NCBI RefSeq assembly: GCF_000421465.1
Contig: NZ_ATXB01000001.1
Location: 2,573,001-2,637,000 of the forward strand
Length of the DNA stretch: 64,000 nucleotides
Direction: 5' to 3'
From: Methylohalobius crimeensis 10Ki
GTDB taxonomy: Bacteria; Pseudomonadota; Gammaproteobacteria; Methylococcales; Methylothermaceae
Shown here: positions 34,975-51,584 of the stretch, piece by piece
Layout: every line of letters begins with the position of its first letter
How positions within the stretch are numbered: the first letter of the stretch is position 1
Translations under genes and position numbers: made by a program
The notes under the pieces: generated by a model
Told to the model about the DNA's origin: nothing
Seen by the model: the letters and a program-made list of their open reading frames with translations, nothing else
Database searches by the model: none

Positions 34975-35036
34975 CCTAATCTTGCCACTCATCTATGCTT
35001 TATACTAAAACCATCACCGCACTGACATTCGACACC

Positions 35037-36995
35037 ATGAACCCATCCCCCCATTTCAGGTATTTCGAGGCTTTCTCCCGCAATCTCGGCTGGATCACCG
35101 CGACCGAACAAAAAATATTGCGCACCAAGCATGTCGCCATCGCCGGGATGGGCGGCGTTGGCGGAAGCCACCTGTTGACTTTGGCCCGCCTCGGTGTTGG
35201 CGCATTTCACATCGCCGACTTCGACGTTTTCGAGCTGGCCAATTTCAACCGTCAGGCCGGCGCCACCGTCAGTCACATAGGCCGGCCCAAAGTGGAAGTG
35301 CTGGCGGAAATGGCCCTTGACATCAACCCCGAGTTGCAAATTCACCGGTTTCCGGAAGGGGTCACCCGAAACAATCTAGCGAAATTTTTTGCCGGCATGG
35401 ACTTGTACGTGGACGGGCTCGATTTTTTCGCCTTCGACGCCCGCAGAATAGTATTCGACCACTGCGCAGAGGAAGGCATTCCCGCCATTACCGCCGCTCC
35501 TCTGGGGATGGGGGTGGCACTGTTGAATTTCTTGCCCGGCGGGATGACTTTCGAGGAATATTTTCGTCTTGAGGGGCAATCCGAAGACGAGCAGATTCTC
35601 CGTTTCCTATTGGGGCTATCCCCGCGGATGCTGCAAACCGGCTATCTCGCCGATCCCACAGGGGTGGACTTGGCCCACCACAAAGGGCCCTCCACTCCCA
35701 TGGCGTGTGAACTCTGCGCGGGGGCCGCCGCCACCGAAGCGCTCAAGATTTTACTGCACCGGGGACCGGTTAAAGCCGCTCCGTGGGGGATGCAGTTCGA
35801 CGCCTATCGCAACCGATGGGTCAAGACCTGGCGCCCCGGAGGCAACCGGAACCCGCTGCAGAAACTCGCCTTAACCATTGCCCGAAAACAGCTCATGGCT
35901 GTAAAAAATTCTGACACCCATCAACAAACACCACCCCGAACCGCGATCGAGGAAATCCTCGATGCCGCCCGCTGGGCCCCTTCCGGGGACAACACCCAGC
36001 CGTGGCGGTTCGAACTCATCGATGATCGGCATCTGGCTGTCCATGCTCACGACACCCGCGATTGGTGCGTGTACGACCTGGAAGGCCGCGCCAGCCAGCT
36101 AGCGGTCGGGGCACTACTGGAATCCATCGCTATCGCCGCCAGTCAGTTCAATCTCAAGGCACGATTCGAACGGCGCCCCGACAGTCCGGAAACCCGCCCG
36201 GTCATCGACGTTTATTTCGAAGAGGATCCCGAGACCCGTCCCGACCCCCTCTACCCCTACCTGCCTTTGCGCTCGGTCAACCGCAGGCCGTACCGGACCC
36301 GTCCCCTCAGCCGGCGGGAAATACGCGCGCTAGAGAAAGCCGTCGGAGATCGTTACCGGATTTTATGGCTGAAAAGTTGGAAACAGCGCTGGCAGGCCGC
36401 CCTGTTGATGTTCCGCAACGCCAAGCTGCGCCTGACCATGCCCGAAGCCTACAAAGTTCACAGTCAAGTGATCGAGTGGAACGCCCGCTTCAGCGAGGAC
36501 AAGATTCCGGATCAATCGGTCGGTCTCGACCCCTTGGCCCTGAAATTGATGCGCTGGGCAATGGTTAGCTGGGAGCGGGTCAAGTTTCTTAACAAATGGC
36601 TTGCCGGTACCTGGCTACCACGCATCGAACTGGACTTCTTGCCGGGGATTTTCTGCGCCGCCCATTTTGCCCTTGTTGCCGGACAGGGACCGAAATCGCT
36701 CGAGGATTACCTGCAAGCCGGGCGCGCCCTGCAGCGCTTCTGGTTGACGGCCGCTTCGCTAGGGCTGCAACTCCAGCCGGAAATGACGCCGTTGATTTTT
36801 TCCGGTTACGTTCAGAAGGGCGTCGAATTTACCCAAACGAACACGGTCCGGAAAGGCGCCCAGCATCTGGCAGAACGATTCCAATCCCTTTACGGCGATC
36901 CGGTTCGGATTGTCTTTGCCGGACGAATCGGCGATGCTCCCCCCGCAATTGCCCGCTCTCTGCGTAGATCCATGGATGCGTTGCGGGTGACGTGA
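35037..36995 (+). CDS. ThiF/E1-like adenylyltransferase fused to a nitroreductase domain (MoeY-like)
   Basis: 652 residues from ATG 35037 (an in-frame ATG at 34995 would add 14). Residues about 15-270 are a ThiF/MoeB/E1-type Rossmann domain (VAIAGMGGVGGSHLLTLARLGVG, ADFDVFELANFNRQ, DINPELQIHRFPEGV) with MACELCAG near its end. Residues about 290-640 are a nitroreductase-like flavin domain starting EEILDAARWAPSGDNTQPWRFEL. The same order of domains occurs in mycobacterial MoeY, whose role in molybdopterin synthesis is only a prediction. No ubiquitin-like or sulfur-carrier partner is adjacent, and the acyltransferase gene is divergent. The substrate is unknown. Confidence 0.85.
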   Translation: MNPSPHFRYFEAFSRNLGWITATEQKILRTKHVAIAGMGGVGGSHLLTLARLGVGAFHIADFDVFELANFNRQAGATVSHIGRPKVEVLAEMALDINPELQIHRFPEGVTRNNLAKFFAGMDLYVDGLDFFAFDARRIVFDHCAEEGIPAITAAPLGMGVALLNFLPGGMTFEEYFRLEGQSEDEQILRFLLGLSPRMLQTGYLADPTGVDLAHHKGPSTPMACELCAGAAATEALKILLHRGPVKAAPWGMQFDAYRNRWVKTWRPGGNRNPLQKLALTIARKQLMAVKNSDTHQQTPPRTAIEEILDAARWAPSGDNTQPWRFELIDDRHLAVHAHDTRDWCVYDLEGRASQLAVGALLESIAIAASQFNLKARFERRPDSPETRPVIDVYFEEDPETRPDPLYPYLPLRSVNRRPYRTRPLSRREIRALEKAVGDRYRILWLKSWKQRWQAALLMFRNAKLRLTMPEAYKVHSQVIEWNARFSEDKIPDQSVGLDPLALKLMRWAMVSWERVKFLNKWLAGTWLPRIELDFLPGIFCAAHFALVAGQGPKSLEDYLQAGRALQRFWLTAASLGLQLQPEMTPLIFSGYVQKGVEFTQTNTVRKGAQHLAERFQSLYGDPVRIVFAGRIGDAPPAIARSLRRSMDALRVT

Positions 36996-37160: not shown

Positions 37161-38516
37161 TTATGGTCCTCCCCCCTGTACGTTCCGATCCAAGAGCACA
37201 CCATCGGGATCCTGATCAACCAGGTTGCCATCCAGAAGCGTTTGGAAATTGTTCGTGAGATCCGATCCCGGGTCAGTCTCCCCTTCGATACTCTTCGGAT
37301 TCATCCGGATGCGCATGGCATATTCGCCTGAAGGCAAGCCCAAACCGGTGAAGTCAAGCGTCTGATCGGTCAGAGTCGGGTCCGCAAAGCTATCCTGAGT
37401 AATAATTTCGCACTCGAAGCCTGTGTCGGTAGCCACCACTTCGAAGAGCTGCCAAGTCGTCAAGTCCATCTCATAGTCAGGCCCACCGGTTGAACTTTGC
37501 ACGATGTCGACGATGAAGTCGCTGCTGCTTGGGTCAAAATCAAACCGTGTAAAGTAGAAGGCGGCGCCGGGTGTCACATTAAAAACAGAGCCAGATCTTA
37601 CCCGCATATCGAAGCTCTCGAGAATCGAGTCAGGATCATCGTTGACGAAATCTTCACAGGTTGTCCCCGTGGGGGAGACCCGCCCTTGGCCGTCCTCTTC
37701 TTCCTTCGGCGCGACGATTTCCTGAATCTTCAGATCCAGCGCGACCGTCCGCATTTGGTTTTCGTCCGGCAGATTGAGCTGGACTTGCAAGGCCCCGAGA
37801 TTGCTGAGGTCAGCCGTCTGGGGATTCTCCGGTGTTCCACCGCATTCCACATTAAGAATCTGGGGATCGCCAGTCGCTCCCGGGTCTCCACAAAAGTCCG
37901 TCTCTTCAAAGACCGTGAATGGAATGGTTCGCGTTATCGGAAAACCCGGTGCAACCACCGAGGATTGAATGGTAAATATCGTGAAGTGAGTCGCGTCCGT
38001 ATAGGCTTCAATGGTGAAGACGAAGGTCTGATCGGCCTCGTCGATCGTAAATTCGAGACCGCTTGCGGTGCCGCCGGCGGTCAGATCGAACCCTCCCAAT
38101 CCATCGGGCACCAGAGCGATATCTTGATCGTCGCCGTCCCACTGGACGATACCTTCACCGGTCACGCCGGTATCGTTGTTGAACCTAAGCGTGCCGGAAC
38201 TGATGGACATCACCGCACACTTGTCACCTACATCGCAAACGTCGTTACCATTCACATCATTGGTGCCTGACAAGGCGTTGACGAAAATATCGCGCTGCCC
38301 GCCCAGAATGGAGGGGATTCCTGTGCCGGTCGATTGAAAGTCGCCCGCGCCCCCTTCAACCACATCGGAGGCAACCTGCGGCTCGGTGAAAAGGTCGACG
38401 ACCACCTTGTCGCCATTTACAGCCGCGGCATTATGAGCAAGACCAACGAGCAGAGAAAATGCCATCCGCCTCGATGTCAAAGAATACTTTCTAAGCTTTT
38501 GAATGTAAGTACGCAT
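37161..38516 (-). CDS. Secreted paralogue of the adjacent PEP-CTERM protein, lacking a sorting tail
   Basis: 451 residues with a signal peptide (SRRMAFSLLVGLAHNAAA, cleavage near residue 32). Residues 38-140 are clearly homologous to the PEP-CTERM protein next door, sharing VASDVV, ISGxNDVxGN, DVGD, FNNDTGV and IQWDG. The C-terminal 250 residues are unrelated to it, contain several cysteines, and end in a Asp/Gly-rich tail without PEP motif, hydrophobic helix or basic end. ATG 38516 has GGAG eight bases upstream. The function is unknown; probably a soluble or partner form of an extracellular protein. Confidence 0.8.
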   Translation of the reverse strand: MRTYIQKLRKYSLTSRRMAFSLLVGLAHNAAAVNGDKVVVDLFTEPQVASDVVEGGAGDFQSTGTGIPSILGGQRDIFVNALSGTNDVNGNDVCDVGDKCAVMSISSGTLRFNNDTGVTGEGIVQWDGDDQDIALVPDGLGGFDLTAGGTASGLEFTIDEADQTFVFTIEAYTDATHFTIFTIQSSVVAPGFPITRTIPFTVFEETDFCGDPGATGDPQILNVECGGTPENPQTADLSNLGALQVQLNLPDENQMRTVALDLKIQEIVAPKEEEDGQGRVSPTGTTCEDFVNDDPDSILESFDMRVRSGSVFNVTPGAAFYFTRFDFDPSSSDFIVDIVQSSTGGPDYEMDLTTWQLFEVVATDTGFECEIITQDSFADPTLTDQTLDFTGLGLPSGEYAMRIRMNPKSIEGETDPGSDLTNNFQTLLDGNLVDQDPDGVLLDRNVQGGGP

Positions 38517-38587
38517 GGGAATTCTCCGTTTAAGTTTGGCGGGGTTGCCGGCATTTCTCTGCGAGGGCTCCCCGTATTCACACAAAA

Positions 38588-38618
38588 AAAGCGGCTCCCG
38601 TTGGAAGAAAGCCGCTTT
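38588..38618 (-). terminator. Intrinsic terminator after the PEP-CTERM gene
   Basis: A 9-bp stem (AAAGCGGCT / AGCCGCTTT) is followed on the minus strand by TTTTTTTG, a strong rho-independent terminator. It lies between the PEP-CTERM gene and its paralogue, so the paralogue needs readthrough or its own promoter. The other strand also ends in a T-rich run. Confidence 0.85.
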
Positions 38619-38674: not shown

Positions 38675-39520
38675 TCAAGCGATCCGCTTTCTGCGCACCA
38701 TGCCTCCTGCCGCCAAACCGACACCCAACAAGGCAAGCGTCGCCGGCTCGGGGACACCTTGTTTCGTGATGGCGCCAATTTCCAGGTCAACAGCGACCGT
38801 TGCTCCATCCGAATTCAATACCACCTGCATGGCACCGACATTGTTAAAGTCGACCACGGAATTACCGGCACCGCACTCGACGGCTGCAACTCCGGGGGAC
38901 GGATTTACCGCACCGCACAGAGCCGCGTTGGTAAAGTCGGAGAACAACAGTTCGCTGACTCCCGGCGTGCCATCGGAGATCAGAGTGAAGTTGGTGAAGT
39001 TATCGTCGTCCGTCCATATCCCAACATCAAATTCAAAACCCTGATCCGCCTCCAGCACCTCAAACACGAATCGATCACAACCGGTAACGGGGCAACCCTC
39101 CTGGTTGATGAAGTCGACTCCCCCGAGGCCGGTCGTATCCAGGCCGCTGGAACCGTCGTTGCCGTCCCATTGGATGGTCCCGATGCCGCTGACGCCGGTG
39201 TCGTTGTTAAATGTCAGGGTGCCGCCGCTGACACTCAAGACGGTACCCGAATCCCCGACATCGAAAACACCGTTTCCACTCACGTCATTCGCACCCGAGA
39301 TGGCGTCCGCTTTCAGATCGCGGTATCCGCCCACGATGGTGGCTGGAAAATTTCCCGCTTCGCTGAAATTGTTCGCATTATCGGCATTCGCTCCATCTAC
39401 GACGTCAGACGCCACCTGTCCCGTCCCCGGGTCCACAAAAAGGTCAATGACTTGCGCGCTGGCGCCACCGCTCAGGAGCAGCGCCCCGATCGCAGCCGCA
39501 GATTTAAAATAAGTCTTCAT
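38675..39520 (-). CDS. PEP-CTERM sorting domain protein
   Basis: 281 residues. The signal peptide is MKTYFKSAAAIGALLLSGGASA. An Asp/Gly/Asn/Val-rich, beta-type mature region follows with two cysteine pairs (CPVTGCDRF, AALCGAV / VECGAG). The C-terminal sorting tail is VPEPATLALLGVGLAAGGMV plus basic RRKRIA, the exosortase recognition signal. It should be exported, cleaved at the PEP tail by an exosortase encoded elsewhere, and attached to or released into the extracellular matrix. ATG 39520 is six bases after AGGAG. A sigma-54-like promoter lies about 80 bp upstream. Confidence 0.93.
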   Translation of the reverse strand: MKTYFKSAAAIGALLLSGGASAQVIDLFVDPGTGQVASDVVDGANADNANNFSEAGNFPATIVGGYRDLKADAISGANDVSGNGVFDVGDSGTVLSVSGGTLTFNNDTGVSGIGTIQWDGNDGSSGLDTTGLGGVDFINQEGCPVTGCDRFVFEVLEADQGFEFDVGIWTDDDNFTNFTLISDGTPGVSELLFSDFTNAALCGAVNPSPGVAAVECGAGNSVVDFNNVGAMQVVLNSDGATVAVDLEIGAITKQGVPEPATLALLGVGLAAGGMVRRKRIA

Positions 39521-39598: not shown

Positions 39599-39616
39599 AA
39601 GCGATATTCATGCCAA
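39599..39616 (-). promoter_or_regulatory. Sigma-54 (-24/-12) promoter of the PEP-CTERM gene
   Basis: The minus strand reads TTGGCATGAATATCGCTT. It has GG and GC dinucleotides separated by exactly 10 bp, and TGGCA-G plus T-GC matches to the TGGCACG-N4-TTGC consensus. It predicts a start near 39589 and a leader of about 70 nt. In other bacteria the PrsK/PrsR two-component system and RpoN control PEP-CTERM genes, which agrees with this site. Confidence 0.7.
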
Positions 39617-39946: not shown

Positions 39947-40726
39947 TTAGGTACAGTTTTTCTGGGGGCGGAACATCGTGCCCACCCGGCCGAGGACAAA
40001 GCGAGTAGGCAGCAGGACGAACAGGCGCTGCAAGAAAGTGCCGCGGGCACCGATCACCAAGGGGTGTCCCAACCGGGCAAGAGAGGTCCGTACCATTTCG
40101 GTTGCCGAGCTTCCTCCTTTTATCCCCGCCTGCGCCCCTTCCAGCTTGGTCGGGGTGGGCCCGGGCAGGAAGGTCTGGACCCACACCCCCTTGCCGCGCC
40201 ATTCCTCATGGAGGGCCAGGCTGAAGTGGTGGAGAAGAGCTTTGGTGGCGGCATACACCGCCATGTAGGGAACGGGCTGGTAGGCCGCCGGCGACGACAC
40301 ATTGATAATCACCCCGCGGCCGGAGGAGGCCAAATCGGGCATAAATTCGCGGCACAAGCTGACCGGCGCTACGGCGTTCACCCGGATCATCTCTTCATAG
40401 AAATCGGCGGGACTTTTCTCGAAAGGGGCCCAACGCCCCAGAGCGGCGTTGTTCACCAGCAGCTTTGGACAAATCTCTTCTTCTCGCAGGCGCCGATGCA
40501 ACCGCTCTGCTATCCCTGGCTGCGCCAGGTCTGCGGGAAGGGCAAAGGCGTCGATGCCATGCGTCTCGGAAAGTTCGACCGCCAAGATACGGAGGCGCTC
40601 CGCCCTCCTCGCCACCAAGACGAGATTTACGCCGGCGGCCGCGAGCTGCACCGCGAATTCGCGCCCGATACCCGAGGAAGCACCGGTCACCAGCGCCCAA
40701 TGTCCCTGCAATGCTTCAAGCCGCAT
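39947..40726 (-). CDS. Short-chain dehydrogenase/reductase (SDR)
   Basis: 259 residues, a classical SDR. The NAD(P) motif is TGASSGIG (13-20). Also present are NNAALGRW, the catalytic Ser in INVSSPAAYQPVPY and the catalytic YxxxK (YAATK). The substrate side ends PTRFVLGRVGTMFRP. It is the last gene of the minus-strand operon led by prsT and starts 10 bp after the methyltransferase stop. Class and position suggest oxidation or reduction of a hydroxyl or keto group on the lipid-like product of the operon; the actual substrate is unknown. Confidence 0.9.
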   Translation of the reverse strand: MRLEALQGHWALVTGASSGIGREFAVQLAAAGVNLVLVARRAERLRILAVELSETHGIDAFALPADLAQPGIAERLHRRLREEEICPKLLVNNAALGRWAPFEKSPADFYEEMIRVNAVAPVSLCREFMPDLASSGRGVIINVSSPAAYQPVPYMAVYAATKALLHHFSLALHEEWRGKGVWVQTFLPGPTPTKLEGAQAGIKGGSSATEMVRTSLARLGHPLVIGARGTFLQRLFVLLPTRFVLGRVGTMFRPQKNCT

Positions 40727-40736
40727 GGCCGATCTC

Positions 40737-41339
40737 TCAGAGCCGGAAAGCCACCCCGAACACATAGTCTCCCCCCCCTCGCTCGACCCACTTTTCCCCG
40801 ATCCGGAAGCCCTGCCGCTCCAATTCGGCAACAAACTCGGGACCACTGAAGCGATTATCAGCCGGATGCTCCAGAAAGGTTCGGGCAAACCACTTGTCCA
40901 AAAAGTGGCTGGTGGCCTCCTGAAAATAAAAACGTCCCCCGGATTTGAGCACTCTTCGGATCTCTTTGATCGCGTCTTGCCAAACGGGGACATGATGGAG
41001 GATGGCGAAGTCGAACACCGCATCGAAGCTGGCGTCTTCGGCGTCGATGGCAGTGACATCACCAACTTCAAAGCGAAGCCGCTCGGGAGGAAAATCACTC
41101 AGACGGCGACGCGCCTTGGCTATCATATCGGGATCGATATCAAGGGCATACACGGATTGCGCCCCGAAGCGGCGAAAAATCTCCCGGGTTCCCACGCCGC
41201 GCCCGCAGCCAATCTCCAAAACCCGCATGCCTTCCGTCCGCCCACCCAGCCGCTCCAGGAGGGGCACTTCGTACCATATCTGAAACGCCGCCCGGACGGG
41301 ACTGTTCATCAGAAATTTTTCGACCCGGTTCATCTTCAT
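40737..41339 (-). CDS. Class I SAM-dependent methyltransferase (small)
   Basis: 200 residues starting MKMNRVEKFLMNSPVRAAFQIWYEVPLLERLGG, with SAM motif I MRVLEIGCGRGVGTREIFRRFG, the acidic VYALDIDPDMI and FDAVFDFAILHHVPVWQDAI. The pattern is of ubiquinone/sterol-type small-molecule methyltransferases. The ATG at 41339 overlaps the previous stop (ATGA). Upstream frames are shadows. It is the seventh gene of the prsT operon. Confidence 0.88.
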   Translation of the reverse strand: MKMNRVEKFLMNSPVRAAFQIWYEVPLLERLGGRTEGMRVLEIGCGRGVGTREIFRRFGAQSVYALDIDPDMIAKARRRLSDFPPERLRFEVGDVTAIDAEDASFDAVFDFAILHHVPVWQDAIKEIRRVLKSGGRFYFQEATSHFLDKWFARTFLEHPADNRFSGPEFVAELERQGFRIGEKWVERGGGDYVFGVAFRL

Positions 41340-42220
41340 TTGCTTGCTCCTTGATTGAGAGGCCGGCGCAGAACCACCGCCGGCTCGAAGGCGGAAGGAA
41401 AGAAATACCCCCAAAAAGCGTAAAACCAAAGCCGCGGCCGTCGCAGCATAACCTTGGCTGACGCCGGATCCAGCATCAAGTCCATATCGTGACCCAAGGC
41501 CCGACTGAATTCATCGAGGAAGCGGTAATTGGAAAACGGTATCAAAGTATCCATGTAGGAACGGCGGTAACTCCGAACAAATTCGAAACCCGTTTCTTCA
41601 GCCAAGGCATGTAGGGCTTTCTCGGTGACGATCAGGCGATGGAACGGTTGATGCAATCTCATCAGATGAGACTCAAGATCGTTCATTTTTACCGGTTCGG
41701 AATCAGCAGTGCCCAAATAGAGCAGCCCCCCCGGCCTAACCAGTTCGGAACATTCACGGATGGTTTGGCGAGGATCGGCTACGTGTTCGATCACATCATT
41801 GCCAACGACGCAATCGAACTGACGCTCAGGTTGCTTAGAATAAGCGGCCACAAAAGGGTCGTAACCGGAGACGTCGGTATAACTTTTTTCCTCGAGGTAT
41901 TGAACGAAAACCCCGTTGCCGCAACCATAATCGAGAATCGATGCCTGCTTCGTAAGCCCGGCCCGGCGCAAACGTCTTAAGAGATTGCTGAGGGTGCCTC
42001 GCGCGTAAATATCCAGGCACCGCTTATTTAAAGGATAATCGCGATAGATATCCTCGAAATCCACAGGATCAATGTTATGGATGGTGAAACAGTTTGGGCA
42101 CTTCCACAGATTGTGGAGGCGATCTCGGAAACGTGCGGTATTGCCACGACATGCCCCGACGTCCCCGGCTTCGGGAGCGTCGGTTTCGTAACCACAGATG
42201 AGACATTTGTATTGTGACAT
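41336..42220 (-). CDS. Class I SAM-dependent methyltransferase with N-terminal zinc-ribbon-like region
   Basis: 294 residues. The N-terminus carries CxxC pairs (CLICGYE and CPNC, about residues 6 and 42), a likely small zinc ribbon, then the methyltransferase core ILDYGCGNGVFVQYLEEK, VSGYDPF and DCVVGNDVIEHVADPRQTI. This architecture is frequent among methyltransferases of glycan and lipid modification loci. I use ATG 42220 (MSQYKCLICG), 4 bp after the GMC oxidoreductase stop. Sixth gene of the operon. Confidence 0.87.
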   Translation of the reverse strand: MSQYKCLICGYETDAPEAGDVGACRGNTARFRDRLHNLWKCPNCFTIHNIDPVDFEDIYRDYPLNKRCLDIYARGTLSNLLRRLRRAGLTKQASILDYGCGNGVFVQYLEEKSYTDVSGYDPFVAAYSKQPERQFDCVVGNDVIEHVADPRQTIRECSELVRPGGLLYLGTADSEPVKMNDLESHLMRLHQPFHRLIVTEKALHALAEETGFEFVRSYRRSYMDTLIPFSNYRFLDEFSRALGHDMDLMLDPASAKVMLRRPRLWFYAFWGYFFPSAFEPAVVLRRPLNQGASK

Positions 42221-42224
42221 TGGC

Positions 42225-43850
42225 TTAATTCTCGAATGCATGCTTGACAGTAATCTTATGCGCCACCCGCAAAGCGTTGGCGGCGATGGTCAGACTGGGG
42301 TTAATCCCCGCGCTGCTGGGAAAAAAAGAGGCATCGACGACGTAAAGATTTTCCAATCCGTGGGCACGGTTGTCTCCGTTCAGAACACTGTCGGAAGCAT
42401 TGATCCCGAAGCGACAAGTCCCGCACGCATGCGCCAACCGCTCGTTGTTTTCCGCCTGCTTGATCAGCATGGGTCGATAAGGCTTGAGCAGACGGCGCAT
42501 ATGCGACCGCATCTGCTTCACCCGTTCTTTTTCAACTGGACGCATTCGATAGTAGAAATGTAAACGCCCATTGGCTTCCACTTCGACCCGATTATCCTGA
42601 TAAGGCAAATCCTCCACCATCGAAGCCAAAATAACGCTTCGGGACAAGCGCGCATCAAGATATTTCCGGACCAGCGGCTTCATGGGTCTGAACAAAAATT
42701 CGGCAATGGGAAACGGCCCCTGGCGCAGCTCTTGCGCCAGACTCTCCACGAGCTGAGGTGCCGGCGGAAGGGCGCCGAAACCTTGTACGGAACCATATTT
42801 ACGACCACCTTCAAAATAATAGTCGCTGAAAGCCAACTCTTTCCAGGCCGTTTTTACAGCAACCCCGGTCTTGGGCCGGAGCACATATAAATCAATATAG
42901 TGGCGCATTAAATTCTTGCCCACTAACCCGCTATGGTTGGCCAGTCCATGGGGCCATTCGTCGGAAACCGACTGAAGAAGAATTTTCGGACTGAAGAGTG
43001 CGCCCGCCGCAAGAATTATAATTGATCCCTTCAACCTGATTGTTTGTGATGCGCGCCTGCAGATCACGCCCGTGACCTTATGGTGCGTTGCTTCCAACCT
43101 GAGGATCTCGCAATCGTCCAAAAGCGTTGCACCGTATCTGCTCAGGGCGGGTTGCAAACATATGCGATTGCTGTCATTTTTGCATTCCCTGGCGCATAGA
43201 TAACCTTGACAGCAATTACAATCCGGCCTGTATTCACAGGCAGATGGAAGTCGATAGGGATGACAGCCTTGCTCGCGGAGAAAACTGAATAATTCCCCTC
43301 CTCCCTCTGACAGAGGCGGCGGTTCCAAGTACGGGGGATGGAAATCCTTACCCCGCAAGGCATCGGGGGTACCTCGTACGCGGTAGAGCCTTTCCGCCTC
43401 GGCATAGTAAGGAAGCAAATCTTCGTAGGCGATCGGCCAGCGCTTGGGCAAAGTGCTAGCACCAGCCTCCGGATAACAGGCGCCGGGGGTAAAATCCCCC
43501 GGGAAGAAACGTTCCAAAGCCATACCATAAAGCGCGGTAGAACCGCCTGAGCCTGAACCGACAAATGGAGTGAAAGCCTTAATCCTGCGTTTTGTCCTAT
43601 CTTCGATTTCAGTCCATTCCCTACCTGCATCCTTGAAAATGTTATTCCGACTCAAATTCGGGGACAGGGTCCCGATATAGTCTTCAGCGTAACGACCTTT
43701 CAAACCGGTGGAAGACCAGGGAGATTTTCCCTTTTCACAAAAAAGAACGCTCTTACCGGCTTTTGCCAGGGCATAACCGATAGTGGCCCCACCCATGCCT
43801 GTCCCTACCACGACAACATCCCAGTGTTTGTTAACGATATCTTCGATCAT
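42225..43850 (-). CDS. GMC-family FAD-dependent oxidoreductase
   Basis: 541 residues. The FAD-binding GTGMGGATIGYALAKAGKSVLFCEKG is at residues 16-41. The C-terminal GMC domain contains HACGTCRFG and LYVVDASFFPSSAGINPSLTIAANALRVAHKI, with the expected His pair region. A cysteine-rich insert (CEYRPDCNCCQGYLCARECKN, about 210-230) is unusual. GMC enzymes oxidise alcohols, including sterols, to aldehydes or ketones. It has no signal peptide, so it acts in the cytoplasm. It starts 3 bp after the UGT stop. A hydroxylated lipid or isoprenoid substrate is my inference. Confidence 0.92.
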   Translation of the reverse strand: MIEDIVNKHWDVVVVGTGMGGATIGYALAKAGKSVLFCEKGKSPWSSTGLKGRYAEDYIGTLSPNLSRNNIFKDAGREWTEIEDRTKRRIKAFTPFVGSGSGGSTALYGMALERFFPGDFTPGACYPEAGASTLPKRWPIAYEDLLPYYAEAERLYRVRGTPDALRGKDFHPPYLEPPPLSEGGGELFSFLREQGCHPYRLPSACEYRPDCNCCQGYLCARECKNDSNRICLQPALSRYGATLLDDCEILRLEATHHKVTGVICRRASQTIRLKGSIIILAAGALFSPKILLQSVSDEWPHGLANHSGLVGKNLMRHYIDLYVLRPKTGVAVKTAWKELAFSDYYFEGGRKYGSVQGFGALPPAPQLVESLAQELRQGPFPIAEFLFRPMKPLVRKYLDARLSRSVILASMVEDLPYQDNRVEVEANGRLHFYYRMRPVEKERVKQMRSHMRRLLKPYRPMLIKQAENNERLAHACGTCRFGINASDSVLNGDNRAHGLENLYVVDASFFPSSAGINPSLTIAANALRVAHKITVKHAFEN

Positions 43851-43853
43851 GCT

Positions 43854-45092
43854 TCATCCAAGGGGGGAGGAGTTTCTTCCTCCGCTTGAGTCGACTTGTT
43901 GCGCCACCATTTCTCGAAAACATTGGCCGGAATCGTATTGTTTTAATATATAGGCAGCGTCACCGGCTGCCCGACCATAAGCAACATCTTCCAGTATCAA
44001 GGCTGCCGTTTTACAAATTTCCAGGGGGTCGACGCGAGCAGCGCGGAAAGCAATGCCGGCACCCAAGTGAGCGATAGCCCCCATATTCAGCAATTGATCC
44101 ATATTGGAGCAAATGCCTATTACCGGTATTCCGCACGCCAGTGCCTGGTAGGTAGTCAAGCTGCCCCCATTGCTGACTACCAATTGCGCTCGGCGAGTCA
44201 CCACTTCCATGGGCAGTTCTTCGGCGACAAAAACATTGGCGGGCAATTTGCCGAGATCTATTTTGCCCAAAGTAGCGGCAACGATAGTGACAGGAAGAGA
44301 GGAAAGCCCTTGAATGACCGATGGCAGAAGGTGGGTTCGTCCCGAGCTTCCCAAAGTCACGAATATGACCGGCCGGTCCGAAGGCAAGCGCTCCCACCAC
44401 TCGGGTAACGCCGCTTTGGTGGACCAAAGGACCGGACCCAAAAAGTGATGGTCGGCCGGCAAAGCAAGCCCCGGATAAAGCTCGGGAACATCGGCATACA
44501 ATACGGTATCGCCGTCGGTGTAAAAATACCTGACATCCGGCGGCAGTTCTGCCAAACCGTGGCGCCGGCGTAGGTTATTAAAAGGGCGAGCGTGAATGGC
44601 GAAGACTTGTGAGATGACCTTGCGGAATACAGGTTCCAACCACGCCGGAGGCAACCATTCCAGGGGGGTCAAGCAGGGATAGGGAGGAATCGCGCACCAT
44701 TCCGGTCGCCAGTAGGCGTTGGCAATGTTGACATAAGGCACCTCCTCTGTCCGGGCGCTGATGGAAAGCGACAGGCGGAAATCCCCCACGACCACGTCCG
44801 GCCGGATCTGATTAAGCAGTCGAAGATCGTCGGCGACATAGCGCCTGAGGAGGTTTTTGGAGAAGATACGCAACCCCCAATCCAGCGCTCGCCTGAATTG
44901 GGACGGAGCCATGCTATCAAGAAAATGGATGGGAAGTGTGTAATCAGTCAGGAATTTTCGAAAGCCATTATCCGGACAAGCCAGATGAACATCCCATTCA
45001 TCCGTCGACAACTGGTCGATCAAGGCCAGCGGCCGGGCCAAATGAGCCAGGGTAACCGCCTCGGCGAAGAACAAGATCCGTGTCTTTCCCAT
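43854..45092 (-). CDS. UDP-glycosyltransferase (GT1/MGT family, sterol or macrolide glucosyltransferase-like)
   Basis: 412 residues with the GT-B fold. The N-terminal acceptor domain opens TRILFFAEAVTLAHLARPLALI. The C-terminal donor domain contains VIFVTLGSSGRTHLL and the PSPG-like region VVSNGGSLTTYQALACGIPVIGICSNMDQLLNMGAIAHLGAGIAF. Members glycosylate small hydrophobic acceptors such as sterols, polyketides or carotenoids using UDP-sugars. The start ATG 45092 lies just after the upstream stop (TGA-T-ATG). Its presence suggests that the operon makes a glycosylated hydrophobic molecule. Confidence 0.88.
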   Translation of the reverse strand: MGKTRILFFAEAVTLAHLARPLALIDQLSTDEWDVHLACPDNGFRKFLTDYTLPIHFLDSMAPSQFRRALDWGLRIFSKNLLRRYVADDLRLLNQIRPDVVVGDFRLSLSISARTEEVPYVNIANAYWRPEWCAIPPYPCLTPLEWLPPAWLEPVFRKVISQVFAIHARPFNNLRRRHGLAELPPDVRYFYTDGDTVLYADVPELYPGLALPADHHFLGPVLWSTKAALPEWWERLPSDRPVIFVTLGSSGRTHLLPSVIQGLSSLPVTIVAATLGKIDLGKLPANVFVAEELPMEVVTRRAQLVVSNGGSLTTYQALACGIPVIGICSNMDQLLNMGAIAHLGAGIAFRAARVDPLEICKTAALILEDVAYGRAAGDAAYILKQYDSGQCFREMVAQQVDSSGGRNSSPLG

Positions 45093-45093
45093 A

Positions 45094-45897
45094 TCAGGGC
45101 AACCGCGGCAGGATGGCGGGATTGAACATCTCCACACGGATTTCGGAACTGTGAAAACGATAATCCTCCCACACCAAAACGGTGGCCTTACCGGTTTGAT
45201 GGTTGATCATCAACATCCTGCCCGGCCGCCAAAACTTACCCAAGTAGTGTTTGTATCGATGATAGGTGAGGGATTTCAAATGATCGCCGCGACGATTATA
45301 GTATTCAATCTTCCAAGGAATATAATGTTCCTGATCGGTCCAGATCACCTGTTTACTGTAAAGAGAGTTCTCGTCCTTGGGATAACGTTCAGTTACGAAT
45401 ACCGAACGCCCTTTGTAATTATCGTCACGCAAGTATTTATAGGTGTATTTCTCGAGCACCGGTGCAGTCATGTCCTCGTAAGAAAATTCGCTGCCCATAA
45501 AAGAACCGCCCTTGTTGGCGGCAGAAATCCTTTTCACCCGTTTGAGTGCAGGCAGATACAGCCACTGGTCATCGTCTCCTTGCTTATGGGAGAAAGTCAG
45601 GAACTTGGTGCCGGCCACGTCGGCGGGGCTGTCGAAAATCAATAGGCTTTTGTCGCCATCATCGTTTCCTTCTAAATTGAAACTGCGAAGGTAGCGTTTG
45701 CTAGTTTCGCCGCGCTGATTACGCAGCAGCATCATTAGGTCGACCCGGAAATCTCGCCACCCTTCGTCGCGCCGCTCGACCTCACGCGCGATTTCCAGAC
45801 CCCGCTCTTCTGGCGTTAAAGCGAAAACGCTGGGATACCAAAACAAACAGACAAACCACAAAGATAATTTAATTATCGATTTGCGTCGCATTGGCAT
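45094..45897 (-). CDS. LolA-like outer-membrane lipoprotein-sorting family protein
   Basis: 267 residues. The signal peptide (LSLWFVCLFWYPSVFA, cleavage near residue 27) is followed by a beta-rich domain with RDFRVDLMMLLRNQRG, LIFDSPADVAGTKFL, DDQWLYLPALKRVKRI and WKIEYYNRRGDHLKSL, the pattern of the LolA-like family (outer membrane lipoprotein-sorting protein). These proteins are commonly encoded beside MMPL/RND transporters and are thought to carry lipids across the periplasm. It overlaps the MMPL gene by 29 bp if ATG 45897 is used; ATG 45891 is equally possible. Confidence 0.85.
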   Translation of the reverse strand: MPMRRKSIIKLSLWFVCLFWYPSVFALTPEERGLEIAREVERRDEGWRDFRVDLMMLLRNQRGETSKRYLRSFNLEGNDDGDKSLLIFDSPADVAGTKFLTFSHKQGDDDQWLYLPALKRVKRISAANKGGSFMGSEFSYEDMTAPVLEKYTYKYLRDDNYKGRSVFVTERYPKDENSLYSKQVIWTDQEHYIPWKIEYYNRRGDHLKSLTYHRYKHYLGKFWRPGRMLMINHQTGKATVLVWEDYRFHSSEIRVEMFNPAILPRLP

Positions 45898-48205
45898 ACT
45901 TTTTTTCCCTCTCACTTGCAAGCAACAAAGGCGGCAACAGAAGAAAATCTGCCATCAGCGCAAAGCTGATGGTAACCGCAACCAAAAGACCCATTTGGGC
46001 GTTGATCTCAAAATCCGACAGAGTCAGCACCAGGAAACCCGCCGCCAAAACCAATGAAGTAACCCATATGGCCCTGCCCACCTGCTCAAAAGCATAGTTG
46101 ATCGCAGCCACGGGCGAATATTGCAAATAATTTCGACCGCGAAGATATTTACTCAGAAAATGGACCGTATCATCCACCACGATCCCCAGCGTCATACTCG
46201 CCACCACCGATAAGCCCATGCTGATCTGCCCGTGGATTATTCCCCACAATCCGAAGGCCATAAGCGCCGGAACCACGTTAGGGATCAGACTGACCAGCCC
46301 CCAAAAAGCAGAACGGAAAGCAACGACCAGCGTCAAGGAAATCACCGCAAAAGCCACCCCTACGCCCAGCAACATGCCACGGATATTGCTTTGGCCGATA
46401 TGGGCGAACATGACTGTTCCCGCCGCTTGTGCCTGCATGTAATCAGGGGTGTTTTGCTGCAGCCAACGGTCGGAACGCTGTTCCAGGTCTAACAACTGAT
46501 TGCTAGAAAGGTTTTTTAGGGTAATGGTAATGCGCGAAGCCGACTTATCTACATTGATGCGATCATTGAGCTCCAATCCTGCCGGTAGGGACATCTGGTA
46601 TAACAAAAGATATTGTGCGGCCAATTCCCGGCTGTTCGGAATTCGATACCAAGCCGGATCGTTGGCATGCATGTTTCTATTAAGGCGCTTGATAATATCG
46701 GCGATCGAATAGACATGAAGGGTCTCGGGTTGGTTTCGGAACCAATGGGCAAAGCGATTCAAGGATTTCAGATACTCCGGCTCGGTAATACTTCCTCCTT
46801 GGGGAGCCCGAAGCGAATATTCCATAATATACATACCTGTTAGACGGGAGGTGGCGTACTCCGTATCCGCTCTGAATGTCACCGAAGGCGAAAAGTATTT
46901 AATCAGATCGTCGTTGAGTTCATTGCGTAGAGCAAAACCAGACAAGCAAAGCACAATTGCCGGCATGATAACCAACAACGCTTGACGTCGGTTAACCACG
47001 AAATTCGCCAGTTTTCCCATCCAAATAGCATCATGGCTGACGGCACTAGAAATGCCAATCGGCATGAACATGGCCAGCAATGGCAATAGCAGCAGGGTAT
47101 AGATAAACGCGAACCCCACTCCCATAGCCGAGATGTTTCCCAAATCGCGAAACGGAGGAGAATCGCTGAAATTCAGACTCAAAAACCCTAATGCGGTGGT
47201 AAAGCTGGTTAGAAAAACTGGCTGGAGATTGGTTTTCAAGCTTTCGGTCATAGCATTGAACTGAAATTGACGCCAGTCAAGTGGGCTGAGCCAGCCACGC
47301 CGCAAAACAATCAGAAAAGTCATCAGAACATGAACGCAATCAGCCACCGCCAAGGTTAGAATGATGTTGGGCGCCGCTGCCGAAGGGGGGGAAATGCGAA
47401 AACCCAACCAGCCGGCCAAACCCATGGTCGCACCAATAGACAGCAAGAGAGCGAGATAAGCCCACAAAGCGGCAACCAGGGAACGCAATAGCAGCCACAT
47501 AGCAACAAACACAAGACCGAACATGAGAGGGAACAGCGTTCCCATGTCCTGCTGGGAGGCTTCAGGGAAAGCTTGGCTCATCATCACGCCGCCGGTCAGC
47601 CGGACTTCCAGCAAAGGATCGCGTTCCTCCAATTGCCGCGCCAACTGCCGCACATGCGCCACTACCTTGGGGATCTCGGTCTGTTCATCAACTTCGGGCA
47701 GACGGACTGTCACGTGTACTCCCGTCACTCGCCCGTCGGGAGATACGACTCTTTGAACCAGCAAGGGTTCACTAAGTGCAATCCGGCGAATTGCAGCCAT
47801 ATCGCCCTGCGTTAGGGTTTCAGCATCTCGATAGAGATCGCGCACGATAAGTTCATTGCTACGCCCTACCGTGTACTGAAAGTTTTGCAGGGAATCGACC
47901 CTTTGCACATAGGGGATTAACCATGCTTGCTGCGTCAGCCATTCCACGTCATCAAGAACGCGGAGATTAAATACGCTGCCTTCCTTGGGAGTTAGGACAA
48001 ACAACACCGTGTCATCCTTGGTATAGGTGTCGTGAATGGTGTCAAGGGCCTGGAGGTATGGATTATCGGGATTGAAAAATACCCGATAGTTGGTGGTAAA
48101 AGTCAGGAATCGGGCACCGCTGATAAGCGCACCTGTTGCCAAAAGAAGCGTCACTAGCACCCACCAGCGCCAGCGATGCATCCATTTGAGGTAGCTTCGA
48201 TGCAT
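45869..48205 (-). CDS. MMPL/RND-family lipid transporter
   Basis: 778 residues. A first transmembrane helix (about 14-34) precedes a large periplasmic domain (about 40-220), then five helices (PLMFGLVFVAMWLLLRSL onward), a second periplasmic domain (420-600) and a final set of helices containing GIVVDDTVHFLSKYLRG near residue 670. This is the duplicated RND fold of MMPL exporters, related to hopanoid transporter HpnN and mycobacterial MmpL proteins. It lies 1 bp after prsT. With the LolA-like protein it forms a plausible inner-membrane-to-outer-membrane path for the lipid product of the downstream enzymes. Confidence 0.92.
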   Translation of the reverse strand: MHRSYLKWMHRWRWWVLVTLLLATGALISGARFLTFTTNYRVFFNPDNPYLQALDTIHDTYTKDDTVLFVLTPKEGSVFNLRVLDDVEWLTQQAWLIPYVQRVDSLQNFQYTVGRSNELIVRDLYRDAETLTQGDMAAIRRIALSEPLLVQRVVSPDGRVTGVHVTVRLPEVDEQTEIPKVVAHVRQLARQLEERDPLLEVRLTGGVMMSQAFPEASQQDMGTLFPLMFGLVFVAMWLLLRSLVAALWAYLALLLSIGATMGLAGWLGFRISPPSAAAPNIILTLAVADCVHVLMTFLIVLRRGWLSPLDWRQFQFNAMTESLKTNLQPVFLTSFTTALGFLSLNFSDSPPFRDLGNISAMGVGFAFIYTLLLLPLLAMFMPIGISSAVSHDAIWMGKLANFVVNRRQALLVIMPAIVLCLSGFALRNELNDDLIKYFSPSVTFRADTEYATSRLTGMYIMEYSLRAPQGGSITEPEYLKSLNRFAHWFRNQPETLHVYSIADIIKRLNRNMHANDPAWYRIPNSRELAAQYLLLYQMSLPAGLELNDRINVDKSASRITITLKNLSSNQLLDLEQRSDRWLQQNTPDYMQAQAAGTVMFAHIGQSNIRGMLLGVGVAFAVISLTLVVAFRSAFWGLVSLIPNVVPALMAFGLWGIIHGQISMGLSVVASMTLGIVVDDTVHFLSKYLRGRNYLQYSPVAAINYAFEQVGRAIWVTSLVLAAGFLVLTLSDFEINAQMGLLVAVTISFALMADFLLLPPLLLASEREKKYANATQIDN

Positions 48206-48206
48206 A

Positions 48207-50999
48207 TTAATCAGGGTGTAAATCTTTCAATAAGGCTTGTGCCGCCGGACGTTTCGGGAATTGCTCCGCCTGGGTCAAAAGCGATTCCAATACCTGACGT
48301 GCCTTGTTCTTTTGGCCGTCGGCAATTAATAACTTAGCCCAGTGGTATTGAATTAGAGGATTTTCTGGCTGCTTTGCGACAGCCAATTGCATTTCTTCCA
48401 ATGCGCGGCTGTTATTCCCATTGATACTGAGAGTCCAAGCCAATGTGTCGCGCATGCGAGCGGACTCCGGCATCAACTTAACCGCCCGTTCCGCGTAACG
48501 CAATGCTTCTCGGGGGGCTTTATTCCGCAGCAGCCACGCCAGATCATTCAGCGCCATGGCATGATCCGGATATATCTTCAACAAAGCACGCAAGCGATCT
48601 ATCGTTTCATCCAGACGATCACTTTTCCACAGCAGGTTGGCATAAGCGTAGGCAGCAGATCCGTCGCCCGGATGTTTACTCATCCAAGTCTTCAGAATCT
48701 CTTCGGAGCGCTTTTTGTCTCCACTGAACCAGTAAGCGCGAGCCAGGTTGATCGTCCAGCTGGAATCGGCCGATTGTGCCAATGCCTTTTCGTAATTGGA
48801 GATCACCGCCTCCCAGTCACCCGACTTCATCGCCAGCTCAGCTCGAAAGGCGAGCACACCCGCATTGTCCGGATAATTTTCAAATAATCTCTGTGCGTCT
48901 TCCTGGGCCTGTTGGATCTTGTTTTGCGACAATTTCAGCTTGATCAACGCCAGCCTCGCAGGAATAAAAGCGGGATCTAATTCCGCAGCCTTCTTCCACA
49001 TGCGTTCGGCTTTCACAAAATCGTCATTTCCAAGTGCCACTTTGCCAGCCAAATAATGGGCTTCAGCCGAGGATGGCGACGCTTCCAGAAGTTGCTGAAC
49101 GCTTTCGCGGGCGCTCGTCAATTGGTCGGTCTGCATCTGGGCTTTGACCAACAACATCAATAGATCTACCTGTTGCGGATATCTCGGCAGGATCTTTTCT
49201 ACTAAAGTTTGCGCTTTCTGGAACTCCCCGTAATTCAAATAAAATTGGGCCAGAATTACATGGGGAGCTAGGCTTTCAGGATGATCGCTAACAGCCTGTT
49301 CCAATTTTTGGCGGAAATCCTCCAACTTGCCTTCCTTTTCATCCAGCTCAGCTAAACGAAGCTGCGTGGCCAGATCTTTCGGATGTCGTTTTAAAACAAC
49401 TTCGTATAAGTCCCGAGCATCGCTATATTTTTGGTCTTTGATTGCAAACTGCGCCAAATTGTGAGCAATTGCAGGATTGCCGGGTTCTCTCTCCCAGGCC
49501 ATTTGAAAAGTGCTCTCCGCCTGCTCGCTTTCCCCCCGCGCAAGCTGAAGCGCACCAAGCAGATTAAATGGCAAGGCGCTGTCCACTAAATCCTTCTCGT
49601 CTTGCAAGCTCTGGATCAACTCCTCCGCTTCATTGAATTTCTTGGTCCGCAGATAGGACAAGGCTAATTGGACCTTGGCAGGAATCAGACCGGGATCCTG
49701 AACCAAGGCTTCCTTGAGTTCCTTGATTCCTAACTCACTCTCTCCACCGGCCAATAGCCCCAAACCTAACTTAGTTCGATATTCGGCTGATTCCGGTTCC
49801 AGCCCCACCATTTTCTGCAGATATTCAATACCCTTGTCTTGATTTCCCAGCGCAAACTCTATCTTGCTCATAATTTCTAGAACAACGCGATTCTCCGGTT
49901 GAAAAAGTAAAACCGGCTCCAGCGTCTTTTTGGCCTCTTTAGCCGCCCCCAGTCTGAGCTGGGTTAAGGCCAATACTTTTCTCGCTCGAACTGAATTGGG
50001 AGCGGACGTCATAAAGCGCGACAAATTTTCTTCTGCCTGGGCCAAATGATTCTGCAACAGATGGGCCACGCCGAGAAAATAATAGCCGGGCAGATATTGG
50101 TTATTGAGAGTAAGGACTTGCTCCAACTGGGTCTGAGCCTCGGCGTATCGTTTTTGCTGCAAAGCTAATAAACCAGCAGCATAGTGGGTCATAAAATAGC
50201 GAGGCGCGATTTTCTGAAGCCGTTGGATGTCCTCGGTCGCCCCTGCATACTTTTGACGCTCGATACGAACTAAAGCACGATCGACAAGGTCTGAAATGTT
50301 GATTGTATTAAAGTCGATTGCCTTGTCATAAGCCTCCTCGGCCTCTTCATAATTTTCCGCAACCCTTGCCAATTCAGCCTTAAAGCGCCATAGGCGTCCC
50401 TCCTCGGGAGCAACCTGCAATGCTTCGTCGAGCAGCCTTTCCGCCCGCCCCAAGTCATTATTTTTTGCCGCCAATCGCGCCATCCCAAGTTTCGGCAGAG
50501 GAGCTTGTGGATCAATTGCCAACCCCCGTCGATACTCAGCCTCGGCATTGTCGAGATTCCCCACCATTAGCCAGGCATCGCCGCGCAAAGACATTAATTT
50601 CACTTGCTGTTGAGGGGGAAGATTCGGCGGCACCTCGATTTTATCCAAGATTTCTCGATGTTTGTTCTGCAATATCAGTGCTTCAGCCAGAGAAATCATA
50701 ATCGCTTCTTTAGCCACACCCAATTCCACCGCGCGACGCAATTCCTTTTCTGCCGAGGCCCCATTGCCGGCTTGGACATAAAGTTGTCCCAAAAGCCTTC
50801 TTGCCTCAGGGTTTTTCGGGTTTTTCTGCAGGGCGTTCTTGAGTTCAATTATGCTCGCGCGCAGGTCACCTTGCGCCTGATATTCCTTTGCCCGGGAAAT
50901 GTGTTCTGCGTCGGTCAGATCGGGGGAGCAGGCACTGATTGTCAATGCGGCTATCAACGCCACGCTTAAGCGGCGTAAACTTAGTGCGGAATGGGCCAT
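48207..50999 (-). CDS. prsT: PrsT, PEP-CTERM system TPR-repeat lipoprotein
   Basis: 930 residues. A signal peptide ends in the lipobox ISAC (lipidated Cys 24), and more than 20 TPR-type helical repeats then run to the C-terminus. Typical repeat starts are SIIELKNALQKNPKNPEARRLLGQLYV, AERLLDEALQVAPEEG and YLAGKVALGNDDFVKAERMWKKAAELDP. Length, lipobox and repeat pattern match the PEP-CTERM-associated TPR lipoprotein family. ATG 50999 has AGGAG eight bases upstream. It is the first gene of the apparent eight-gene operon down to 39947. It may scaffold outer-membrane or periplasmic assembly of surface material. Confidence 0.93.
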   Translation of the reverse strand: MAHSALSLRRLSVALIAALTISACSPDLTDAEHISRAKEYQAQGDLRASIIELKNALQKNPKNPEARRLLGQLYVQAGNGASAEKELRRAVELGVAKEAIMISLAEALILQNKHREILDKIEVPPNLPPQQQVKLMSLRGDAWLMVGNLDNAEAEYRRGLAIDPQAPLPKLGMARLAAKNNDLGRAERLLDEALQVAPEEGRLWRFKAELARVAENYEEAEEAYDKAIDFNTINISDLVDRALVRIERQKYAGATEDIQRLQKIAPRYFMTHYAAGLLALQQKRYAEAQTQLEQVLTLNNQYLPGYYFLGVAHLLQNHLAQAEENLSRFMTSAPNSVRARKVLALTQLRLGAAKEAKKTLEPVLLFQPENRVVLEIMSKIEFALGNQDKGIEYLQKMVGLEPESAEYRTKLGLGLLAGGESELGIKELKEALVQDPGLIPAKVQLALSYLRTKKFNEAEELIQSLQDEKDLVDSALPFNLLGALQLARGESEQAESTFQMAWEREPGNPAIAHNLAQFAIKDQKYSDARDLYEVVLKRHPKDLATQLRLAELDEKEGKLEDFRQKLEQAVSDHPESLAPHVILAQFYLNYGEFQKAQTLVEKILPRYPQQVDLLMLLVKAQMQTDQLTSARESVQQLLEASPSSAEAHYLAGKVALGNDDFVKAERMWKKAAELDPAFIPARLALIKLKLSQNKIQQAQEDAQRLFENYPDNAGVLAFRAELAMKSGDWEAVISNYEKALAQSADSSWTINLARAYWFSGDKKRSEEILKTWMSKHPGDGSAAYAYANLLWKSDRLDETIDRLRALLKIYPDHAMALNDLAWLLRNKAPREALRYAERAVKLMPESARMRDTLAWTLSINGNNSRALEEMQLAVAKQPENPLIQYHWAKLLIADGQKNKARQVLESLLTQAEQFPKRPAAQALLKDLHPD

Positions 51000-51107: not shown

Positions 51108-51584
51108 TCACTCCTCCTGTTCCTCAATCCGCCGCTTATGAATCTGCTCGCGGGCTTGCCGAGCCAAGTCCAGATAACGCTGACGCAGGATCTCCAATTC
51201 TTTCTCCTCCATTTCCTCCAGATCCAAAAGGATGTTTTCGGCCGAATCCATCGCGCGGATGAGTTCGTCGAGCTTGATCTGGATGGCGTCGGTGTCGCGA
51301 TTCTGGGTGTGTTGGATCAAGAACACCATCAGGAAAGTCACGATCGTGGTGGCGGTATTGATGATCAACTGCCAGGTGTCGCTGAAGCCAAACACCGGCC
51401 CGCTCAGCATCCACAGCAAAATAATGGCGATGGCGATGCTGAAGGCGAAGGGCCTTCCCGCCAAGCGCGAAGACAAACGGGCGAAGTGGTCGAAACGGCT
51501 GATCCAATAACCGGTATTGACACCCCATCGCCGGAACCGAGCTTCGATTGCAGCGGCGATTTTCAGTTCCTCTCTTTTAGCCAT
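51108..51584 (-). CDS. Low-affinity iron permease family protein
   Basis: 158 residues with two transmembrane helices (about 46-64 and 70-95) and the family block FAFSIAIAIILLWMLSGPVFGFSDTWQLIINTATTIVTFLMVFLIQHTQNRD, followed by a charged coiled-coil tail of 50 residues rich in Glu and Arg. The family name comes from weak similarity to fungal Fet4; in bacteria its transport role is unproven. AGGAGG lies six bases before the ATG. It starts 37 bp after the glutamate dehydrogenase stop, so it is probably the tail of that operon. Confidence 0.85.
   Translation of the reverse strand: MAKREELKIAAAIEARFRRWGVNTGYWISRFDHFARLSSRLAGRPFAFSIAIAIILLWMLSGPVFGFSDTWQLIINTATTIVTFLMVFLIQHTQNRDTDAIQIKLDELIRAMDSAENILLDLEEMEEKELEILRQRYLDLARQAREQIHKRRIEEQEE

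Follow-up and report, generated by a model that had tools for sequence, protein, structure and literature searches.

A PrsT-led operon and two flanking genes in Methylohalobius crimeensis: a proposed route to a glycosylated N-acyl amino acid or oxazolone lipid for a PEP-CTERM surface system

Known oxazolone and PEP-CTERM systems

Methylothermaceae are methanotrophs, and the genome of one of them, Methylohalobius crimeensis 10Ki, contains an eight-gene operon led by prsT, a gene of the XrtA/PEP-CTERM system, within a stretch of 64,000 nucleotides (contig NZ_ATXB01000001.1, positions 2,573,001 to 2,637,000; hereafter the window). Close to the operon lie a gene resembling N-acyl amino acid synthases (NAS) and a gene in which a ThiF-like cyclase is fused to a nitroreductase (ThiF-NR). 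We propose that the operon constitutes the tailoring and export half, and the two flanking genes the synthesis half, of a single lipid pathway. That this pathway makes and exports a glycosylated N-acyl amino acid or oxazolone lipid serving a PEP-CTERM surface system is the interpretation we favour, placing it slightly on the probable side.

The chemistry assigned here to the synthesis half has been described in other bacteria. In mycobacteria, TyzA acylates tyrosine, TyzB (a ThiF protein) cyclises the product and desaturation by TyzC, a member of the nitroreductase superfamily, yields acyl-tyrazolones; TrzA and the fused TrzS produce tryptazolones, and the same chemistry is ascribed to OxzA and the fused OxzB of Pseudoalteromonas rubra (available parts of PMC10404671 and PMC12856293, the last system as cited therein). 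The window resembles these clusters in carrying a NAS gene beside a ThiF cyclase that is fused to, or accompanied by, a nitroreductase-type desaturase, and in having an MMPL neighbour, as mmpL9 flanks the tyz cluster in the same accounts. In contrast to them, it adds a GT1 glycosyltransferase, a GMC dehydrogenase, methyltransferases, an SDR, a LolA-like protein, PrsT and a PEP-CTERM gene, and its NAS and ThiF-NR genes lie on opposite strands. The oxazolone literature that we found contained no mention of PEP-CTERM or exosortase.

Producers of stieleriacine, kyonggic acid and thalassotalic acid, compounds with a dehydrotyrosine core, likewise have NAS, ThiF and nitroreductase genes in common (PMC12479983, 2025), the combination also found in the window; Stieleria clusters further share with it a methyltransferase and that of Stieleria maiorica a PEP-CTERM gene (PMC7293339, 2020). 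In the portions of these papers available to us, the main text of the former lacks the words glycosyltransferase, PEP-CTERM and transporter, and the latter names putative transporters and gives them no role.

The PEP-CTERM side of the comparison concerns cell surfaces. In Aquincola, prsT is required for flocculation, and overexpression of pepA, a PEP-CTERM gene adjoining prsT, restores flocs in an rpoN1 mutant and moves polysaccharide from the soluble to the bound fraction (PMC9850573, in part). The window has a PrsT equivalog and a PEP-CTERM gene nearby, as does Aquincola, but differs in the lipid-tailoring and export genes of its prsT operon and in its PEP-CTERM protein, which we rejected as a member of the flocculation protein family PepA (NF033554, 28.5 bits against a cut-off of 80). 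PEP-CTERM systems have been tied to exopolysaccharide (PMC1569441, in part), and a polysaccharide cluster of Rubrivivax gelatinosus (RGS1_10373 onward, tabulated in PMC3684757) comes close in combining PEP-CTERM TPR lipoproteins, a PEP_exosortase protein, an ABC permease with its ATPase and UBA/ThiF proteins; in the portion of the table at hand it differs by showing no MMPL, UGT, GMC or lipid role. In Methylomonas LW13, according to the available part of the account, disruption of a NAS-type gene (ExoAT) leads to the loss of a distinct polysaccharide band. N-acyl amino acid synthases are also said to have been linked to PEP-CTERM systems by Craig in 2011.

Each half of the proposed pathway is already known. 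In our partial coverage of the open-licence literature we found no report that combined them with a glycosyltransferase, GMC, SDR and lipid exporter, and none that joined oxazolone genes with PEP-CTERM and MMPL, GMC or UGT genes. Gathered at this locus are a synthase and a cyclase-desaturase, enzymes for sugar and methyl tailoring, PrsT, a lipid exporter and a PEP-CTERM protein; the pattern partly recurs across Proteobacteria. For a surface system associated with flocculation and, in a methanotroph, with the formation of polysaccharide, the locus thereby names a lipid class that can serve as a concrete candidate.

The operon, its flanking genes and the proposed pathway

The original prediction, made from the DNA letters, described eight genes on the minus strand between 50999 and 39947, separated by gaps of 1, -29, 1, 3, 4, -4 and 10 bp; this layout was confirmed, including the 29 bp overlap of the MMPL and LolA-like genes, and its gene-type labels mostly agreed with family scans (Table 1), those given to the GMC and UGT proteins being loose at the level of subtype. 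It overlooked the NAS-like and ThiF-NR genes at 33968-36995. The N-terminus of the prsT product, read from the translation, contains ...ALTISAC. Co-transcription of the eight genes would be expected from their spacing. Between 37000 and 51700, sigma-70-like sites are fewer than in shuffled sequences (5 against 10.4), with four of the five on the operon strand, and terminator-like sites number 27 against 19.1 (standard deviation 5.5), several of them within operon genes; neither count decides co-transcription, and the terminator scan is uninformative. The window has a G+C content of 59%, and the operon runs from 49-55% (prsT through the first methyltransferase) to 58% in the second methyltransferase and 63% in the SDR gene, so that it is probably a mosaic, the alternative being that it was acquired. 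Both here and in one relative (genome G018, locus L018), prsT is preceded by a glutamate dehydrogenase gene and a small gene (51108-51584 in the window), so that the site is shared.

Table 1. Features of the operon and its surroundings (positions within the window)
Feature	Position	Strand	Basis
PEP-CTERM-associated acyltransferase, NAS/OxzA-like	33968..34759	-	TIGR03694 238 bits, cut-off 112
ThiF-like cyclase fused to FMN nitroreductase, OxzB/TrzS-like	34995..36995	+	PF00899 and PF00881; NF006077 over cut-off
Paralogue of the PEP-CTERM protein without PEP-CTERM tail	37161..38519	-	42% over 241 columns
Terminator-like stem behind the PEP-CTERM gene	38588..38618	-	terminator scan, 12 pairs
PEP-CTERM protein, signal-like N-terminus, VPEP...RRKR sorting tail	38675..39520	-	PF07589 26.7 bits (cut-off 20.7); TIGR02595 26.7 (cut-off 16)
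Sigma-54-like -24/-12 site upstream of the PEP-CTERM gene (suggestive only)	39600..39616	-	one mismatch
SDR oxidoreductase	39947..40726	-	PF00106
S-adenosylmethionine-dependent methyltransferase 2 (MT2)	40737..41339	-	PF13649/PF08241
S-adenosylmethionine-dependent methyltransferase 1 (MT1)	41336..42220	-	PF13489
GMC flavoprotein dehydrogenase	42225..43850	-	PF00732/PF05199; PDB glucose/fructose dehydrogenases; Cys motif
GT1-type glycosyltransferase (UGT)	43854..45092	-	PF06722, EryCIII-like C-terminal domain; best PDB match CalG1
LolA-like periplasmic lipid carrier, signal-like N-terminus	45094..45897	-	PF17131 210 bits; PDB 3bk5, 9tp6, 4z48, 3buu
MMPL/RND-type lipid exporter, both halves	45869..48205	-	PF03176, two stretches
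prsT, lipoprotein-like TPR protein of XrtA/PEP-CTERM system	48207..50999	-	TIGR02917 722 bits, cut-off 312

From the gene content, order and linkage that were observed, we infer each catalytic step and the product. The NAS protein would attach a fatty acyl chain to an amino acid, which is probably aromatic. By analogy with the homologous pairs characterised by others, the ThiF domain may then activate and cyclise the carboxylate and the nitroreductase domain introduce unsaturation at the 2,3-bond; the result would be an acyl-oxazolone or, once this is opened, an N-acyl dehydro-amino acid. Whatever the order of these steps, the GT1 enzyme would attach a sugar, the two methyltransferases would methylate, and the GMC dehydrogenase and the SDR could shift a hydroxyl group, possibly one of the sugar, between redox states. 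The MMPL protein would extract the lipid from the inner membrane and pass it to the LolA-like carrier for carriage towards the outer membrane, a step suggested by family membership and by the LolCDE-like or DevABC-like proteins that stand at the same place in relatives. Finally, PrsT and the adjacent PEP-CTERM protein may make use of the lipid, or travel with it, as the surface or matrix is assembled, a role suggested by linkage and by the effects on flocs and polysaccharide that have been described for prsT, pepA and a NAS gene.

The ThiF-NR protein conserves residues G51, G53, G54, G56, D75, D77, R86, K99, D136 and D140, the nucleotide-binding and acidic residues of ThiF, at 93% or more in each case among 38 sequences. 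Its two domains are fused in six related loci and encoded by separate genes elsewhere. It matched NF011424 and NF005901 (the Rv1355c family) below their cut-offs and, scoring 202.6 bits against 476 for the latter, is a homologue rather than an equivalog of that family. The NAS protein gave no match in the PDB by phmmer. In a Foldseek search with its predicted model (pLDDT 79), the top matches were the acyl-homoserine lactone synthases LasI, TofI, RpaI and BjaI, followed by FeeM in eighth place (LasI 3.7e-09, FeeM 7.0e-07; TM-score near 0.5 by query length).

Among solved structures, the GMC protein is nearest to FAD-dependent glucose and fructose dehydrogenases. It contains the motif C211-x2-C214-x4-C219-x3-C223. 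In a set of 44 non-actinobacterial GMC sequences that includes the window protein, 43 have the first three cysteines and 40 the last; in the actinobacterial set, all four are found in 38/38. We take the motif to hold an iron-sulphur cluster, on the strength of what is generally known of glucose and fructose dehydrogenases. Together with these nearest structures, the motif suggests that the protein is a flavoprotein dehydrogenase of the iron-sulphur kind, with a sugar as its plausible substrate. This nearness to sugar dehydrogenases also suits an explanation in which the tailoring enzymes modify a glycan (exopolysaccharide or sugars on the PEP-CTERM protein) instead of a lipid, the MMPL-LolA pair having a general role at the outer membrane. 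GT1 enzymes, however, mainly glycosylate small hydrophobic acceptors, and a lipid-type exporter adjoins several such clusters. The glycan explanation draws further on the tie of PEP-CTERM systems to exopolysaccharide and on the shift of polysaccharide seen on pepA overexpression (PMC1569441 and PMC9850573, each in part), and we regard it as distinctly unlikely.

The original prediction had offered a sterol- or hopanoid-like backbone as one option, on the grounds of a cholesterol-oxidase-like GMC and a sterol-glucosyltransferase-like UGT. Both labels proved loose on closer comparison: the GMC protein scored 47.7 bits against a cut-off of 850 for NF058674, with sugar dehydrogenases as its PDB matches, and the UGT is nearest among solved structures to CalG1 and oleandomycin-type glycosyltransferases. 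The MMPL protein is weakly similar to the hopanoid transporter HpnN, and its predicted model, which is of low confidence (pLDDT 67.6), has HpnN and NPC1-like proteins among the structures that it resembles; as an HpnN it was nevertheless rejected (TIGR03480, 91.9 against 751.85 bits; NF052374, 23.9 against 1100). Scans of twenty window proteins turned up no cyclase or hopanoid gene, cyclases not having been sought in the remainder of the window or of the genome. With the HpnN and cholesterol oxidase cut-offs missed widely and the GMC and UGT proteins closest to other families, a sterol- or hopanoid-like glycolipid appears very improbable. The candidate exporter of the glycosylated N-acyl amino acid or oxazolone lipid that we prefer has a duplicated MMPL domain and an adjacent LolA-like protein, and from family membership this pair would form a lipid exporter and its carrier. 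The MMPL model also matches structures of MmpL3/4/5 and Dispatched; because it is weak, its fold ranking was used to assign the superfamily only. Across relatives one of three types takes the exporter position: MMPL-LolA, DevA/B/C-like proteins, or LolCE/LolD-like ABC proteins accompanied by a protein weakly similar to LolA.

Linkage of the genes in other bacteria

Two surveys bear on whether the halves belong together. Among 201 Methylococcales genomes, ThiF-NR was found at 59 loci in 56 genomes. TIGR03694 lay within 500 bp at no fewer than 20 of these loci and within 10 kb at no fewer than 30, and a homologue of the window MMPL, PrsT and the UGT lay within 8 kb at 16, 8 and 7 of them, respectively. 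Where the genome has an MMPL match at all (24 ThiF-NR loci), the two genes are within 8 kb of each other at 16 loci, against a chance expectation of about 0.3 of 24, itself a rough upper estimate; the window, where the two genes are 9.4 kb apart, is outside the 16. The original prediction would lose ground if prsT occurred uncoupled from the other seven genes in relatives, and here the outcome goes both ways. Across the order most PrsT loci are not coupled to MMPL, a homologue of which lies within 8 kb at 8 of 83, seven of these eight being in this genus. Within the genus (ten genomes, at the E-value limits of the searches), NAS (TIGR03694), MMPL and PrsT are present in 10/10, ThiF-NR in six, UGT in only four and GMC in only three, a distribution from which we take the first three to be the core and the tailoring genes to be accessory.

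The second survey scanned named genomes with four GMC query sequences and yielded 79 loci from the best 80 of 179 places, weaker relatives falling outside these. By record titles they divide into 38 actinobacterial loci and 41 others, some of the latter on short contigs and one (L048) on the same contig as a genus relative. Neighbouring genes were counted by tblastn with thresholds that we set, because a simple gene caller proved unreliable in G+C-rich loci, where it produced antisense open reading frames (ORFs). The 41 non-actinobacterial loci had nearby UGT (28), PEP-CTERM (25), ThiF-NR (18), SDR (17), PrsT (16), a hexapeptide transferase (14), a LolCE-like permease (13), MT1 (12), NAS (7), LolA-like (7), MT2 (6), an ABC ATPase (6) and MMPL (3) genes; three of the 41, two from Pseudomonas and one from Bdellovibrionaceae, had none of these module genes nearby, and at the 38 actinobacterial loci each module gene was found at 0/38. 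The contrast for PrsT and PEP-CTERM (16/41 and 25/41 against 0/38) supports the central claim of the original prediction, namely a system for the synthesis and export of a lipid or glycolipid tied to PEP-CTERM. The hexapeptide-repeat protein, of 220-250 aa and weakly similar to the terminal domain of Pls/PosA, recurs at L130, L131, L133 and L135 besides the 14 loci counted above, and none was found among the window proteins scanned. Many mycobacteria (L052-L097, within the 38 actinobacterial loci) carry GMC relatives that are 43-47% identical to the window protein, sometimes two per locus; lacking module genes, they represent a separate use of the same enzyme family.

The two gene sets might instead be separate neighbouring systems, NAS and ThiF-NR making an oxazolone or N-acyl dehydro-amino acid and the UGT, GMC, SDR and methyltransferases building an unrelated glycolipid, with MMPL-LolA serving one of them. 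Clusters of UGT, GMC and SDR without a flanking ThiF-NR do occur (for example L024, L030 and L067), five of the 11 genomes with such an unlinked, module-bearing GMC locus have no ThiF-NR match at all, and the two sets are distributed differently within the genus. Conversely, in two genus relatives ThiF-NR immediately precedes GMC in the same orientation, with an 11-bp overlap (L016) or a 4-bp gap (L015), and the two genes are neighbours on one strand at L025, L028, L029, L035, L041 and L045. Where they are unlinked, ThiF-NR is carried elsewhere in the same genome in 6/11 cases, and TIGR03694 is present in 9/13 module genomes, as opposed to 0/3 genomes with GMC alone. Taking both sides together, we judge two separate systems to be rather unlikely.

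Several observations nonetheless weigh against the single pathway that we propose. The window pair lies outside the operon, NAS being on the same strand but past other genes and ThiF-NR on the opposite strand, and because acyl-homoserine lactone synthases rank above FeeM for the NAS fold, the substrate of this protein is not settled by fold alone. ThiF-NR is farther than 8 kb from MMPL at 43 of its 59 Methylococcales loci, MMPL stands near only 3/41 non-actinobacterial GMC loci, and the LolCE-, LolD- and Dev-like proteins of relatives fall below curated cut-offs. To these must be added the accessory standing of UGT and GMC in a genus where NAS, MMPL and PrsT are universal, and the five genomes without ThiF-NR mentioned above. 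TIGR03694 is missing from 4/13 module genomes, including a Duganella in which ThiF-NR lies beside the cluster and which another synthase type may therefore serve, and one of the three genomes with GMC alone (Bdellovibrionaceae) has a ThiF match. The presence of a PEP-CTERM gene in 19/20 Methylococcales loci retrieved speaks for the pathway, but the count is not unbiased since the loci were picked for module genes; the exosortase and PrsK genes lie 1.0 and 1.2 Mb from the operon; and no glycosylated oxazolone, stieleriacine or kyonggic acid is described in the available parts of the literature consulted. Given the absence of ThiF-NR from 5/11 and of TIGR03694 from 4/13 genomes, the UGT-GMC set can probably work with N-acyl amino acids, or with other lipids, without cyclisation.

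PEP-CTERM genes of the genome and other features of the window

The genome carries an XrtA/PEP-CTERM system, with PrsT over its cut-off, three PEP-CTERM matches, one EpsH-family exosortase and one PrsK, the last two also over their cut-offs; a second PrsT adjoins PrsK. One of the three PEP-CTERM matches lies directly downstream of the operon, in line with the predicted tie between the two. In an extension of the proposed pathway, the glycosylated N-acyl (dehydro)amino acid, or the reactive oxazolone itself, would anchor PEP-CTERM proteins in the membrane or act as their coupling partner: once exported, it would be joined to the cleaved surface protein or its polysaccharide, or would serve to hold one of these. 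We think this extension improbable; if it were true, exosortase A would have its own lipid acceptor, with a role like that of the lipid acceptors of archaeosortase and rhombosortase.

PepA was the top family for 8/8 PEP-CTERM proteins scanned from related loci, three of them over its cut-off. A label of 44% identity linking the window PEP-CTERM protein to a protein of a relative was discarded, the similarity being limited to the tail. The sigma-54-like pattern has 14 matches in the window against 3.8 expected, so that the site at 39616-39600 is not specific by itself. The neighbouring paralogue at 37161-38519 gave no PF07589 or NCBIfam match in family scans and has an additional C-terminal stretch of about 180 residues; a frameshifted PEP-CTERM tail was looked for in three minus-strand frames and none was read there.

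Elsewhere in the window, a 1431-aa ORF on the minus strand (11454-15749) combines an N-terminal PIG-L de-N-acetylase domain with three family 2 glycosyltransferase stretches and adjoins a gene for a Wzt-like ABC ATPase with a Wzt_C domain (15697-17268). Judging from the start of their translations, two adjacent plus-strand ORFs at 20911-22069 resemble a split IS630-type transposase, and a minus-strand ORF at 28903-29469 resembles a REP-associated tyrosine transposase.

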